64,000 nt of DNA. Source: Treponema sp. Marseille-Q3903 (lineage in GTDB: Bacteria; Spirochaetota; Spirochaetia; Treponematales; Treponemataceae). Under the pieces are notes generated by a model that saw only the letters and a list, made by a program, of their open reading frames with translations, was not told where the DNA came from and did no database searches. Location: NCBI RefSeq assembly GCF_014334335.1, contig NZ_JACSEU010000001.1, forward strand, positions 992,001-1,056,000, in the 5' to 3' direction. Each line of letters begins with the position of its first letter. Position 1 is the stretch's first letter. The translations under genes and the position numbers were made by a program. This document shows positions 4,335 to 25,386 of the stretch, piece by piece.

Positions 4335-4421
4335 CGTTTAATGGTCACCGCATTTTGTATCGCTTCATTTTTTTTATAATGTATCGGATATGAAAGTAAG
4401 CGTTCGATTTACCGCTGCCCT

Positions 4422-4845
4422 GCACAGATAGCGCGTTGCTTCTAACTTCGAGTTTTCAAAAAAGAAAACTCGCTGATATACGTGTGCGCTCTAGCGCACG
4501 AATTGCACGGCTCCTAAATCTGATGATTTACTCGCCGTGCAATTTTACGGAATGTTTAGAAGCACCGCACAGATAGCGCGTTGCTTCTAACTTCGAGTTT
4601 TCAAAAGAAAACTCGCTGATATACGTGTGCGCTCTCGCGCACGAATTGCACGACTCCTAAATCTGATGATTTACTCGCCGTACAATTTTACGGAATGTTT
4701 AGAAGCACCGCACAAATGGCGCGGCACTTCTAACTTCGAGTTTTCAAAAAAGAAAACTCGCTGATATACGTGTGCGCTCTCGCGCACGAATCCGGCATTT
4801 TCGAAAATCGACATTTTCTGCAATGCCGCATTTTAAGGAAGATGT
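4422..4845. repeat. Three-copy 145-bp multi-hairpin repeat
   Basis: Copies start at 4422, 4567 and 4710 (periods 145 and 143); the third is full-length only to about 4790. Each has a stem CGAGTTTTC/GAAAACTCG, a stem CGTGTGCGC/GCGCACG, and a third stem near TTGCACGG/CCGTGCAA. TAGAAGCA and TGCTTCTA form a further stem across each copy junction. In the third copy the last stem has another sequence (CGGCATT/AATGCCG), but the flanking bases (GCGCACGAAT before, TTTTAnGGAA after) are kept. The block fills the whole gap between the chemoreceptor and the macrodomain gene. Its function is unknown; DNA-level spread or a structured RNA are both possible. Confidence 0.8.
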
Positions 4846-5631
4846 ATGACACAAAAGGAACGACGCGTTTTTTTAATAGATTGTCTTTTAAAGGAAAACC
4901 CCGGTTATCGCACGGCGCGAATACCGGATGACGAACGGGAACAAAAGGTTTTGCTCCGTTCCCTGATGAATGTCCGAGTGCCGCAAGACACGAGCGAAGA
5001 ATTTTTACGCATACAGGATGAGTATTTACGGGAAGCGATCCGGGAAGGCGGCATTACCGACCTTGTGCAGTTAAAACCTGTTGCAGCGTGCGGGAACGGA
5101 GAATTGTATATTTGGCAGGGCGACATTACACGGCTTAAAGTGGACGCAATCGTGAATGCGGCAAACAGTGCCATGACCGGCTGCTGGCAACCATGTCATG
5201 CGTGCATCGACAACTGCATCCACACATTCGCAGGCGTGCAGCTGCGCGCGGTCTGTGCCGGCATCATGCAAAAACAGGGACACGAAGAACCGACGGGCAG
5301 CGCAAAAATTACACCTGCGTTCAACCTGCCGTGCAAGTACGTGCTGCACACCGTAGGGCCTATTGTGCAGGGGCGATTACAAAAAAAACACGAAGAAGAG
5401 CTCTCGTCCTGCTATCGTTCTTGCCTTGAACTCGCCGATCAACATAAAGTGCGGAGTATCGCCTTTTGCTGTATTTCGACTGGCGTTTTTATGTTTCCGA
5501 ATCGGCGCGCGGCGGAAATTGCGGTAGAAACCGTCCGAAAATACTTCGAGCAAACCGGGAGCGGGATGAAAGTCGTGTTTAACGTATTTAAAGACGAAGA
5601 TTTTGCAATTTACAGCGAAATTTTATCATAA
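4846..5631 (+). CDS. Zinc-type macrodomain, protein ADP-ribose hydrolase
   Basis: The 261-residue product has a helical N-terminal part of about 85 residues and then a macrodomain. Visible motifs are QGDITRLKVDAIVNAAN (near 91-107), a GCxxPCHxCID zinc/catalytic segment (near 111-121), and the phosphate loop STGVFMFP near 212. This Cys/His pattern is typical of the Zn-macrodomains of Staphylococcus and Streptococcus, which remove ADP-ribose attached by class-M sirtuins. A SirTM gene lies 4 kb downstream at 9544, which supports that role. The gene is visibly richer in G+C than its neighbours, suggesting transfer. A degenerate second copy of its 3' end lies at 6999-7124. AAGGAAG precedes the ATG. 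Confidence 0.92.
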   Translation: MTQKERRVFLIDCLLKENPGYRTARIPDDEREQKVLLRSLMNVRVPQDTSEEFLRIQDEYLREAIREGGITDLVQLKPVAACGNGELYIWQGDITRLKVDAIVNAANSAMTGCWQPCHACIDNCIHTFAGVQLRAVCAGIMQKQGHEEPTGSAKITPAFNLPCKYVLHTVGPIVQGRLQKKHEEELSSCYRSCLELADQHKVRSIAFCCISTGVFMFPNRRAAEIAVETVRKYFEQTGSGMKVVFNVFKDEDFAIYSEILS

Positions 5632-16955: not shown

Positions 16956-19900
16956 ATGGAAAGAAAAAGTGTCATGAATAAAGGTCAGTTTTGGCTTTTG
17001 ATGTGGCTGCTTGGTATGGCGGGACAACTTTGCTGGAACATTGAAAATCAGTGGTTCAACACTTTTGTATATGCGAAGATTGCAAAAGATTCTTCGATTG
17101 TCACTTTGATGGTAATCACGAGTGCATTTGTGACTACTTTTTCGACTTTCTTTTTTGGAACGCTGTCTGACAGATTGGGGACGAGGCGCCGATTTATTTC
17201 TCTTGGCTACATAGTTTGGGGAGTTTGCACAATCTTATTTGGTTTTACCGAATTTATTGGAAAAGGTGCAGTCGGAACTGGGGCTAAAGTTTCTATGTGG
17301 GCTGCCGTCATGGTTATTCTTGCCGACGATGTGATGAGCTTTTTCGGTTCGATGGGCAATGATACCGGCTACAACGCATGGAGCAACGACATGACCGATG
17401 ATAAAAATCGCGGACAAATCGGTGCTGTTCTGGCTGTTCAGCCTATTATCGGAACTATCGTGGGAACTGTTCTTGGCGGTTTTCTTATAGGGGCGGAAAA
17501 CAACTATCAGCGGCTTTTTTGGTCGATGGGATTGTTTGTCGTCGCTGTCGGCATATTTTCACTGTTATTTTTGAAAGATTCCCCATCTCTAAAACCTCAC
17601 AAAAACGGTTCGCTTGCTGCACAATTTTGTTCTGTATTTAAAATAAAAGGATTTTTCGCTCAGAGGGAACTGTTGCTTGCGTGTATCACGACTGCCTGTT
17701 TTTTTATTCCTTTTAATATTTATTTTGTGCACATGGGAAACTGGATGATTTACCGCATGGGCTTTAGCGCTGACAGCATGGAAATAATTCAGGGACTTAG
17801 TTTACTTGTCGCATCTCTTTCGGCTATTCCCGCCGCAAATCTCATAAACAAAAACAAAACTCCGGCAGTTGTCGCTTTTGCTATCACTGTCAACATTATA
17901 GGATTGTGGTTGATAACATTGTTTATTCGTCCTGAAATTGTCAATACGCAGAGCGTCTTTAGCAAAGAAAACGCGCTTTTGTTTTTTGCAGTTTTTTCAG
18001 CAGGGATGGGGCTTGTCCTTGTAACGCAGACTATGACGATGTGGGTCAAACAGTTGTATCCTGAGCAAAGCCGCGGTCAATTTGAAGGAATCAGAATACT
18101 ATTTTTTGTTCTCACTCCTATGATTATTGGAACAATTATAGGAAACATCATCATAAAAAACGGCGCCGGTTCTATCGTAAATGAATACGGCATCACCGAA
18201 AATATTCCTGTTGAATCTATCTACATGTGGGCGGCAATCCTTGTAACAGGTGCATTTATTCCTCTTTTTTTTGCTGCAAGGCTTTATCATAAGAGAATCA
18301 ACAACAAAGTTCTTTCTCCTTTGATGACTGTGTGGGGCGAAAATCTGAACAAAGAATGTCCTCTAAATGACTATCCTCGTCCTCAACTTCAAAGAAAACA
18401 ATGGCAGTGCTTGAACGGCATCTGGAAATATGCAATATGCGATGGAAAAGAAAAGCCTGATAGCTGGGATGGCGATATTATTGTTCCTTTTTCGCCTGAA
18501 AGCTTGTTGTCCGGTGTTCAGAGAAAACTGATGCCGTCTCAAACTCTGTGGTACCGCAGGGCTGTTCGTTTTGACAAGATGCCTGCAAACGGTGAACGTC
18601 TTCTTTTGCACTTTGGAGCTGTAGACCAGCATTGTACTGTCTATATCAACGGTAAAGTTATAGGCAACCATTCAGGCGGTTATTGGCCTTTTTCTTTTGA
18701 CATTACAGATTTTATAAATGAAGGTGAAAATGAAATCATAATTTCTGTCACCGACGACACAAACTTAGGCGATGAAGCGTACGGAAAGCAAAAGCTGAAT
18801 AGAGGAAAAATCTGGTATACAGGGCAAAGCGGAATCTGGCAAACAGTCTGGTGCGAGACAGTTCCTCAAACATATATCAAAAATGTCAGCATAAAAACAG
18901 ATTTAAGCAATGGAGAAGTCAGTTTTGCGCTGGACTGCGAAGGGCATGATATGCCGAGTGGAAAAATAACTGTTTTTGATAGCGGAACTGCCGTAGCCGA
19001 AGTTCTTGTTGAAAATAGCGAAGTTCGCATAAAGTTGCCCGAAAACTTTAAAACTTGGTCTCCGGATTCTCCATTTTTATACGACGCACAAATCAGCATT
19101 GGAAAAGATGAAGTGCGGACATATTTTGGCATGAGGGAATTCGGCATAATAAAAACAAAAAAATGTTCGTTTCTCAGTTTAAACGGAAAGCCGATTTTCC
19201 ATCACGGACTTTTGGATCAGGGATATTGGAGCGACGGCATGTACACAGCTCCTTCCGATGAAGCTATGATTTGGGACATCGAACAGATAAAAAAACTCGG
19301 CTTCAACATGCTGCGGAAGCACATCAAAATTGAACCTCTCCGCTGGTATTATCACTGTGACAGACTCGGTGTTCTTGTTTGGCAGGATTTTGTAAGCGGT
19401 GGCGGACCATATAAACCGTTCGTCGTTCAGTACGCACCTTGGATTGGCATAAAGTTTTCAGACGGTCCAAATCGCTATAAGCTGATGGGACGAAAAAGAG
19501 AGCAGGGACGTAAAAACTTTTTACGCGATGCCGAACGCACTGTAAAACTTTTGCGCAATTGCGTCTCCCTTGCCGTATGGGTTCCGTTCAACGAAGCGTG
19601 GGGGCAATTCGATGCCGCAGAAATCGCAGAAAAAGTTCTCTCTTGGGATTCGAGCCGTGCAATAGACCATGCAAGCGGCTACTTTGACCGCAATGCAGGT
19701 GACTTTCACAGCTATCACATTTATTTTAAACACTTTTTTCCAAAAGCAGATAAAAAAAATAGGGTGCTTGCGCTGACAGAATTCGGAGGTTACAGCATGC
19801 CGTCTGAAGGACACATGGTTTCGCCCGCTCTTTATGGGTACAAAATGTTCTCCGACAAAAAAACATTAAACGAAAATATTTTAAAACTGTACAAAGATGA

Positions 19901-20090
19901 TGTTTTGCGCAATATGACAAAAGCTTTGAGCGCTACTGTCTACACTCAGGTAAGCGATGTTGAAGATGAAATAAACGGACTGTTCACTTATGACCGAAAA
20001 GAAATAAAGGCCGACTCTCTTGTGATGAAAGAAATATCTGAAATGATTCAAAACGCTTTTAAAGAAAATCTAGATAAGGCGGACTTATGA
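16956..20090 (+). CDS. Fusion of an MFS sugar transporter to a GH2 glycoside hydrolase
   Basis: One continuous 1044-codon frame holds two proteins that are normally separate. Residues 1-455 are a twelve-helix MFS/GPH-like sugar transporter with the DRLGTRRRF loop motif near 73. After a short linker (about 458-475) comes a GH2 enzyme: sugar-binding domain (YINGKVIGNHSGGYWPF), immunoglobulin-like domain, and TIM barrel with acid/base Glu880 in FNEAWGQ and nucleophile Glu942 in TEFGGYS. The enzyme half has no signal peptide and would sit on the cytoplasmic side if the transporter's C-terminus does. Import and hydrolysis of one glycoside could thus be coupled. A TATAAT lies at 16924 and GGAG at 16945. 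Beta-galactosidase or beta-glucuronidase specificity cannot be told. Confidence 0.92.
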   Translation: MERKSVMNKGQFWLLMWLLGMAGQLCWNIENQWFNTFVYAKIAKDSSIVTLMVITSAFVTTFSTFFFGTLSDRLGTRRRFISLGYIVWGVCTILFGFTEFIGKGAVGTGAKVSMWAAVMVILADDVMSFFGSMGNDTGYNAWSNDMTDDKNRGQIGAVLAVQPIIGTIVGTVLGGFLIGAENNYQRLFWSMGLFVVAVGIFSLLFLKDSPSLKPHKNGSLAAQFCSVFKIKGFFAQRELLLACITTACFFIPFNIYFVHMGNWMIYRMGFSADSMEIIQGLSLLVASLSAIPAANLINKNKTPAVVAFAITVNIIGLWLITLFIRPEIVNTQSVFSKENALLFFAVFSAGMGLVLVTQTMTMWVKQLYPEQSRGQFEGIRILFFVLTPMIIGTIIGNIIIKNGAGSIVNEYGITENIPVESIYMWAAILVTGAFIPLFFAARLYHKRINNKVLSPLMTVWGENLNKECPLNDYPRPQLQRKQWQCLNGIWKYAICDGKEKPDSWDGDIIVPFSPESLLSGVQRKLMPSQTLWYRRAVRFDKMPANGERLLLHFGAVDQHCTVYINGKVIGNHSGGYWPFSFDITDFINEGENEIIISVTDDTNLGDEAYGKQKLNRGKIWYTGQSGIWQTVWCETVPQTYIKNVSIKTDLSNGEVSFALDCEGHDMPSGKITVFDSGTAVAEVLVENSEVRIKLPENFKTWSPDSPFLYDAQISIGKDEVRTYFGMREFGIIKTKKCSFLSLNGKPIFHHGLLDQGYWSDGMYTAPSDEAMIWDIEQIKKLGFNMLRKHIKIEPLRWYYHCDRLGVLVWQDFVSGGGPYKPFVVQYAPWIGIKFSDGPNRYKLMGRKREQGRKNFLRDAERTVKLLRNCVSLAVWVPFNEAWGQFDAAEIAEKVLSWDSSRAIDHASGYFDRNAGDFHSYHIYFKHFFPKADKKNRVLALTEFGGYSMPSEGHMVSPALYGYKMFSDKKTLNENILKLYKDDVLRNMTKALSATVYTQVSDVEDEINGLFTYDRKEIKADSLVMKEISEMIQNAFKENLDKADL

Positions 20091-20093
20091 TAT

Positions 20094-20171
20094 ATGAGTA
20101 AATTTGTTTGTAAAAGTTCTATTTTCCCAGCCAACCGTAGCGTAAAATCGACAATAGAAGAAGGTGAATGA
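20094..20171 (+). pseudogene. 5' remnant of the SRPBCC gene at 20967
   Basis: A 25-codon frame begins MSKFVCKSSIFPAN, nearly the same as the SRPBCC protein start MSKFICKNSIFPAN at 20967, with matching leader ATAT before the ATG. Similarity ends right after PAN, then the frame stops two bases before the transglutaminase ATG. The two copies are direct repeats that bracket the transglutaminase-like gene. Confidence 0.8.
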
Positions 20172-20895: not shown

Positions 20896-20966
20896 CCGTG
20901 TTCCCTAATTGTATTTTTTTATTATGATTATATTGCTCGTTTTTATGAGGTGGAGGATATTGATAT

Positions 20967-21434
20967 ATGAGCAAATTTATTTGTAAAAACTCGATTTTTC
21001 CTGCCAACGCAGATGTGATATGGGAAAAATTGCAAAGTTTTGAATCGTTAAAATATGTGGCGGCTCCTTTTGCAGCCTTTGAGATGGTTGACGGTGAAAA
21101 AAATATGCAGTGGGAATGTGGCAAAACTTTTCGGCTTAATTTTAGGCTGTTTGGCGTAATTCCGTTCGGTATTCATTCAATTTATATATGCACATTAGAT
21201 AAAGAAACATTAACAATATATTCTAATGAGAGTAATCCCCATGTACCGATATGGAATCATAGAATTCAATTGGAGCCCATTGATGACAATCGTACAAAGT
21301 ATACTGACTGCATAGAAATCGAAGCCGGCTGGAAAACAGGCATAATATGTGTCTGGGCTAAAGCATTTTATTCACACAGACAAAGAAAGTGGAAAAAACT
21401 ACTCACAAAAGTAAAAAAAAATGCAGAACGATAA
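20967..21434 (+). CDS. SRPBCC-fold (START/polyketide-cyclase-like) protein
   Basis: The 155-residue product starts SKFICKNSIFPANADVIWEKLQSFESLKYVAAPF, the pattern of SRPBCC ligand-binding proteins, where the first strand is followed by two helices forming the pocket lid. The basic C-terminal tail (HRQRKWKKLLTK) closes the long final helix. These proteins bind hydrophobic ligands; the ligand here is unknown. GGAGG lies before the start. A partial copy of its 5' end lies before the transglutaminase gene. Confidence 0.8.
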   Translation: MSKFICKNSIFPANADVIWEKLQSFESLKYVAAPFAAFEMVDGEKNMQWECGKTFRLNFRLFGVIPFGIHSIYICTLDKETLTIYSNESNPHVPIWNHRIQLEPIDDNRTKYTDCIEIEAGWKTGIICVWAKAFYSHRQRKWKKLLTKVKKNAER

Positions 21435-23452: not shown

Positions 23453-23508
23453 GAAAGAAGAATTAATAACTGAAATTTTGTGTATTTTGTGAAGGAGGAT
23501 ATTGATTT

Positions 23509-23883
23509 ATGTTTTCAATATTAGGTGCAGCATTATTTGGACTTATAGCAACTATGACAGTTCTTGTTGCTTGCGGCTTGCCTTTGGGCGAATTTACAAT
23601 GGGCGGACAACATAAAATCTTACCTAAGAAATTGAGAGTTGCGGCAGTTATTTCAGTGGCTATCCAAATTTTTGCAATGATAATTATTTTACAAGCCGGA
23701 GGTTTTATTTCCTTGTGGTTTTCTTTTAAGGTTACTAAATATATTTGTTTCTTCTTTGCCGCTTACCTATCTTTGAATACTATTATGAACATGATTTCAA
23801 AAAGTAGGAAAGAAAAATATGTTATGACTCCGCTTTCACTTATTGCCGGAATATGTTTTTGGATAACGGTATTTCAGATATAG
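23509..23883 (+). CDS. Small four-helix membrane protein (copy 1)
   Basis: The 124-residue product has four hydrophobic segments and no named domain. It is over 95% identical to the protein at 24994-25386, differing only at scattered positions (for example GQHKI against GQPKI). The two copies are direct repeats of about 370 bp that flank the BAAT-like gene at 23998. GGAGG before the ATG gives a clear start. Function unknown. Confidence 0.8.
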   Translation: MFSILGAALFGLIATMTVLVACGLPLGEFTMGGQHKILPKKLRVAAVISVAIQIFAMIIILQAGGFISLWFSFKVTKYICFFFAAYLSLNTIMNMISKSRKEKYVMTPLSLIAGICFWITVFQI

Positions 23884-24993: not shown

Positions 24994-25386
24994 TTGCCGA
25001 TACTTCCTTTTTTGTTGTCAATATTAGGTGCAGTATTATTTGGACTTATAGCAACTATGACAGTTCTTGTTGCTTGCGGCTTGCCTTTGGGCGAATTTAC
25101 AATGGGCGGGCAACCTAAAATCTTACCTAAGAAATTTAGAGTTGCGGCAGTCATTTCGGTGGCTATCCAAATTTTTGCAATGATAATTATTTTGCAAGCC
25201 GGAGGTTTTATCTCCTTGTGGTTTTCTTTTAAGGTTACAAAATATATTTGTTTCTTCTTTGCCGCTTACCTATCTTTGAATACTATTATGAACATGATTT
25301 CAAAAAGTAGGAAAGAAAAATATGTTATGACTCCGCTTTCACTTATTGCCGGAATATGTTTTTGGATAACGGCATTTCAGATGTAG
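24994..25386 (+). CDS. Small four-helix membrane protein (copy 2)
   Basis: The 130-residue product is a near copy of the protein at 23509, with an N-terminal extension (MPILPFLLSILGA) read from a TTG start at 24994 that follows AAGAGGAGGT. Sequence identity runs to the last codons and a short way into the 3' flank (AAAATGAGGATAATCTACA). Such close similarity at the DNA level points to recent duplication or to gene conversion. Confidence 0.8.
   Translation: MPILPFLLSILGAVLFGLIATMTVLVACGLPLGEFTMGGQPKILPKKFRVAAVISVAIQIFAMIIILQAGGFISLWFSFKVTKYICFFFAAYLSLNTIMNMISKSRKEKYVMTPLSLIAGICFWITAFQM

Follow-up and report, generated by a model that had tools for sequence, protein, structure and literature searches.

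A rare, conserved in-frame fusion of an MFS transporter and a family 2 glycoside hydrolase in Treponema sp. Marseille-Q3903

One long reading frame in the genome of Treponema sp. Marseille-Q3903 places a membrane transporter and a glycoside hydrolase on a single predicted polypeptide, which raises the question of whether the two are truly one gene and, if so, what such a protein would do. The frame lies in a stretch of 64,000 nucleotides, called the window here; the features of the locus are collected in Table 1. It opens with ATG, continues without an internal stop codon and has a predicted product of about 118 kDa. The MFS_1 domain scores 98.4 bits against a Pfam cut-off of 33.4, and the three GH2 domains likewise exceed their cut-offs. 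The gene is present in single copy in its own genome, where the sole further match among those listed is a GH2 similarity of 76 residues. An Rfam search of the window gave no matches.

Table 1. Coordinates of the fused gene and its parts in the window
Feature	Position	Strand	Basis or remark
Fused MFS transporter - GH2 glycoside hydrolase gene	16956..20090	+	1044 codons plus stop
GGAG, Shine-Dalgarno-like, shortly 5' of the start codon	16945..16948	+	
MFS half, residues 1-440	16956..18275	+	Pfam MFS_1, residues 42-375; hydropathy
Linker, residues 441-459, without stop	18276..18332	+	
GH2 half, residues 460-1044; sugar-binding, Ig-like and TIM-barrel domains	18333..20087	+	Pfam; PDB sequence matches 7sf2, 9j6n, 9j6m
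Glyco_hydro_2_N sugar-binding domain, residues 486-632	18411..18851	+	Pfam
Glyco_hydro_2 Ig-like domain, residues 639-727	18870..19136	+	Pfam
Glyco_hydro_2_C TIM barrel, residues 738-1025	19167..20030	+	Pfam
E880, predicted acid/base, NE motif	19593..19595	+	Aligned counterpart: E464 in the JHA19 galactofuranosidase
E942, predicted nucleophile, TEFGG motif	19779..19781	+	Aligned counterpart: E530 in the JHA19 galactofuranosidase

The fusion is confirmed as real and as more than a chance arrangement. The preliminary description of this DNA had called the gene a single in-frame fusion and had suggested a search of related genomes for the same one. That search was positive: the single-contig genome G246, from genus g16 of the same family, encodes one ORF of 1044 amino acids with the same layout (L123:7924-11058) and with AAGGA ahead of its start codon. 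The two fusion proteins share 84.5% amino acid identity. Between the two genes the MFS half has a dN of 0.061 and a dS of 1.72 (NG86 estimates; dN/dS about 0.035) and the GH2 half a dN of 0.119 and a dS of 1.70 (dN/dS about 0.07); the Ig-like domain is looser than the rest (dN 0.29). The low dN/dS in both halves suggests that purifying selection has maintained the fused gene since the fusion. The 26-codon junction (residues 441-466) aligns without gaps and is less conserved, with an identity of 0.654.

The C-terminal half displays the full set of family 2 glycoside hydrolase features, namely the N-terminal, Ig-like and TIM-barrel domains and two catalytic glutamates, with E880 in NEAWGQ and E942 in LTEFGG, and the earlier reading of a complete enzyme thus stands. 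Residues 472-1044 match the PDB sequences 7sf2 (E 1e-121), 9j6n (6e-111, in two stretches) and 7xyr (1.7e-66); four distinct PDB sequences, including 7sf2, fall below E 1e-30. The half is nearer to the GH2_18 entry 9J6M than to the GH2_19 entry 7XYR, with bit scores of 373-375 to 9j6m/9j6n against 228 to 7xyr. For the galactofuranosidase of Streptomyces sp. JHA19, the published mutagenesis table shows 8 of 18 alanine mutants with less than 20% of the activity left, those of D201, D330, E405, D423, E464, D500, E530 and E594 (PMC4560423). All eight of these residues are identical in the window protein (D600, D718, E793, D811, E880, D911, E942 and E1005, respectively). Seventeen of the 18 mutated residues agree with the chain numbering in the alignment and 16 are identical in the window protein; D508, whose mutant kept 33.5% activity, corresponds to Ser919, and D336 is off the numbering. 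From this numbering (17 of 18, at an offset of 23) and from a reference cited in an excerpt of PMC12243196, we infer that the 9J6M/9J6N chain is the mutated ORF1110 protein.

A related GH2 gene (46% identical) in genome G229 lies beside two genes with an alpha-L-arabinofuranosidase C-terminal domain. Together, the PDB matches, the retention of the critical residues and these neighbours make a furanoside, either a galactofuranoside or an arabinofuranoside, the likely substrate of the predicted enzyme; the nearest activity is that of the GH2 group III beta-D-galactofuranosidase. The half could instead be a beta-galactosidase or a beta-glucuronidase, like most GH2 enzymes, and no furanosidase. 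The top NCBIfam matches are indeed to beta-glucuronidase and beta-galactosidase models, and the PDB matches include entries named beta-glucuronidase. However, the NCBIfam scores are far under their cut-offs (97 of 544 bits and 89 of 900), and nearly the whole half matches 7sf2 and the galactofuranosidase 9j6n at the E-values given above, so that we regard a pyranosidase as unlikely, although it keeps some weight. In G229 the GH2 frame stays open over 1147 residues; it was considered as a second fusion and was rejected, as no transporter was seen by eye in the extra frame; this frame overlaps the arabinofuranosidase genes of the opposite strand.

ATG457 of the window (18324-18326) is CTG in G246, and its Shine-Dalgarno-like match is of at most 3 bases. 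Ahead of TTG456, ATG457 and GTG459, the complement of the anti-Shine-Dalgarno sequence is matched over just 3 or 4 bases, nowhere in a purine-rich form like GGAG, and codons 440-482 of G246 contain no ATG, GTG or TTG. Since ATG457 is neither conserved nor served by a good Shine-Dalgarno-like site, the fusion is most likely the only form in which the enzyme is made. It is improbable that the long frame is real and the enzyme nevertheless also, or mainly, free in the cytosol through internal initiation or proteolysis of the linker. The GH2 of relatives is a free protein and the junction is less conserved than the rest, which would suit such release, but the weak Shine-Dalgarno-like matches and the lack of start codons in this part of G246 argue against it.

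The N-terminal half had been described as an MFS/GPH sugar transporter. The MFS assignment holds, with MFS_1 matched; the GPH label does not, for the corresponding Pfam family MFS_2 is absent from the five families listed up to E 1, and the term sugar finds no support beyond the pairing with the enzyme. No relative of this half was found among PDB sequences at E 0.1. Its hydropathy profile has 11 peaks of at least 1.3. A motif-A-like loop follows the first peak (residues 67-79), and from its position, the meaning of which for the topology we assume here, an additional, weaker first helix may be placed; a long basic loop lies at residues 206-239. The half thus probably has 12 helices with both termini inside. 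With both ends of the MFS half inside, the enzyme half is expected on the cytoplasmic side, and the predicted helix count in this way agrees with the inner membrane face proposed before. The pairing of transporter and enzyme suggests uptake as the direction of transport. A different reading, that the MFS half is an exporter or a decayed membrane anchor and that the fusion merely sites the enzyme at the membrane, seems to us quite improbable. It can draw on the NCBIfam models, since every model matched by this half (a single weak multidrug-efflux one) or by the T. putidum relative is of efflux or multidrug type, and weakly matched. On the other hand, the MFS half evolves more slowly than the GH2 half (dN 0.061 against 0.119) and its pattern of helices and loops is full, which together make a mere anchor unlikely.

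The origin of the fusion can be traced in relatives with two genes. In eight family genomes (genera g14 and g15) the halves are two overlapping genes in differing frames, and the same is true of the T. putidum and T. vincentii records. Separate genes in relatives had been put forward as evidence that would speak against a fusion; they do exist, but as the ancestral state, and the fusion is unaffected. Taken as the distance between a conserved motif preceding the last helix and the enzyme's WGE motif, the junction is 120 nt long in both fused genes versus 154 or 155 nt in 10 two-gene Treponema loci (L113-L120, L023 and L027, of which 8 are distinct, the proteins of L115 and L117 being the same as those of L023 and L027); it is 164 and 196 nt in two more distant loci (L032 and L033). 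Eighteen loci were entered into this measurement and four (L025, L026, L030 and L031) gave no row. The shortening by 34-35 nt indicates that a small net deletion made the fusion, removing stop and start and aligning the frames. Trees were built from 40 hand-picked loci and the window, of which a 75% coverage filter left 37 MFS and 32 GH2 rows. In both, the window and G246 are sisters (support 100/99 for MFS and 100/100 for GH2), and this pair adjoins the two-gene g14/g15 group (100/97 and 99/98); the tree program flagged long branches in other rows, outside the window's group. The two trees agree on a single origin, with one operon and one fusion event. That an assembly or sequencing error erased the stop and start separating two genes, an objection raised at the outset, has next to no probability, and the conserved fusion of G246 rules it out: close two-gene relatives do have overlapping genes in differing frames, and a TGA overlapping ATG457 is present in another frame of the window, but chance would not place one and the same error in an independent single-contig genome at a dS of about 1.7, the junction is shorter by 34-35 nt than in the two-gene Treponema relatives and not by one base, and the position of ATG457 holds no ATG in G246.

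The fusion is thus a real and conserved joining of a known gene pair, and it is also rare. Searched with the DNA sequence, 32 of 274 family genomes showed a match, with long matches in the genome of the window, in G246 (79% identity across nearly the whole query) and in the eight g14/g15 genomes (67-73% by piece). The fusion was present in 2 of the 274; the frames of the other, weakly matching genomes were read in part, and a diverged fusion could have escaped a search made with DNA. No other genome among 200 of the same genus had a long match. At the level of the phylum, 32 of 392 genomes had a match at E 1e-90, with two candidates scored per genome, and one match spanning both halves occurred only in the genome of the window and in G246. 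A sample of 149 phylum genomes yielded no further fusion, and G245, the other sampled member of g16, had no match at E 1e-60. Its presence in 2 of 274 family genomes and its absence from G245 suggest that the fusion is generally dispensable. Among 196 genus genomes searched with the protein, one further match to both halves was listed, in G096; there (L004) a distant MFS/GH2 pair lies in one frame, split by a single TAA stop. Among the best 79 of 144 candidate contig loci, 19 contained a relative of each half, never with the best matches in one frame; in 40 others the fetched stretch, in some cases cut by a contig end, showed a relative of the MFS half but none of the GH2 half. Matches were found in 107 plasmid records, but no single place in any of them covered 80% of the query. 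In the open-licence literature, as far as titles and the first parts of abstracts tell, no description of a transporter-glycosidase fusion was found.

The fused proteins are more similar (84.5% identity) than two housekeeping proteins of the same two genomes, EF-G (67%) and IlvD (74%). BLASTN of 19 kb around the G246 gene against the window recovered the fused gene and two short matches (143 and 181 nt) of one G246 stretch, one of which falls in a chemoreceptor gene (MCPsignal) of the window; no neighbours of the fused gene are shared between the window and these 19 kb. The higher identity, judged against two housekeeping genes, and the lack of shared neighbours suggest that the fused gene passed horizontally, long ago and as a unit, between genera of the Treponemataceae. 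The third-position GC of the gene is 41% in the window versus 60% in G246. The upstream gene, used as a probe for an empty site, was found in its own genome only (1 of 196). In G246 a Fic-family gene (Fic_N, Fic, SoFic-like_C; L123:7055-7927) lies directly 5' of the fused gene and overlaps it by 4 nt.

Several repeats were seen in the window. A 48-nt stretch from the stop codon of the fused gene (20088-20135) is 85% like 20961-21008, at the start of the gene at 20967, and looks like a truncated 5' copy from a local duplication or insertion. A direct repeat of 300 nt (23506-23805 and 25009-25308) is 96% identical over copies 1503 nt apart and is followed by a further 45-nt repeat; together these are read as a local duplication. 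Three direct repeat copies spaced by 143-145 nt lie at 4417-4791, ahead of the gene at 4846.

We consider it reasonably probable that the product is a bifunctional protein of the inner membrane, in which an importer carries a cytosolic exo-furanosidase tethered to it, and that the gene arose by one fusion event, was kept, and probably spread horizontally. An ancestral operon would have held two overlapping genes, MFS then GH2; a net deletion of 34-35 nt across their junction would have occurred once, with loss of the transporter stop and the enzyme start; and the fused gene, maintained by purifying selection, would probably have moved as a unit between genera. In the present protein the N-terminal half, probably of 12 helices, would bring in a small glycoside, and the C-terminal half, sitting some 20-30 residues from the last helix at the cytoplasmic face, would cut a terminal furanose (beta-D-galactofuranose or alpha-L-arabinofuranose) off it. 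Tethered import and hydrolysis is most likely the function of the fusion, and the two activities may be coupled. A stronger version, a one-chain machine in which the tethered GH2 takes the emerging glycoside, hydrolysis pulls transport and no free substrate builds up, long kept and passed on horizontally as a unit, is a speculative and rather doubtful extension. The fusion ties an otherwise unassigned clade of MFS transporters to a probable furanosidase and thereby proposes, for transporter and enzyme alike, a substrate that can be tested. As a natural 1:1 construct of the two, it also allows uptake to be compared directly with that in close relatives, where the genes are separate, so that the contribution of tethering can be measured.

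LacS-type transporters belong to the GPH family and carry a C-terminal cytosolic IIA domain, which is regulatory. The window protein resembles them in joining a secondary transporter to a C-terminal cytosolic domain, and differs in that theirs is a GPH transporter and their added domain no glycosidase. PDB 7sf2, a GH2 sugar-binding domain protein, is the best match and covers nearly the whole GH2 half, but has no transporter part. The GH2_18 beta-D-galactofuranosidase of Streptomyces sp. JHA19 (9J6M/9J6N) shares the full GH2 layout; unlike the window protein, it is reported to carry a signal peptide and an AbfB domain (PMC4560423), and it has no transporter. Two actinobacterial single-frame proteins, of Microbacterium gorillae (L047:6100-8955) and Propionibacteriaceae bacterium P6A17 (L052:5998-8769), have a GH2 part 42-45% identical to that of the window. 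Their long frames were tried as transporter fusions and turned out to be GH2-DUF2804 proteins, whose C-terminal partner has no assigned function and which lack a transporter. DUF2804 adjoins an MFS gene in other loci, with relatives in the fetched stretch of 15 of 59 loci that have an MFS relative (from the best 79 of 144), and these associations suggest that this GH2 tends to be recruited into fusions, with partners that vary. All five genomes examined, that of the window included, encode DUF2804 proteins elsewhere, and as a clue to the substrate the domain was set aside as too weak, judging from an excerpt of PMC8151288. The closest comparison is with the pairs of T. putidum OMZ 758 (L023) and T. 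vincentii OMZ 806 (L027), which lie in the nearest group of both trees, have the same gene order and strand, and share 73% identity with the window in MFS and 63-64% in GH2; they differ in making two polypeptides, from a junction that is longer by 34-35 nt and has its own stop and ATG.
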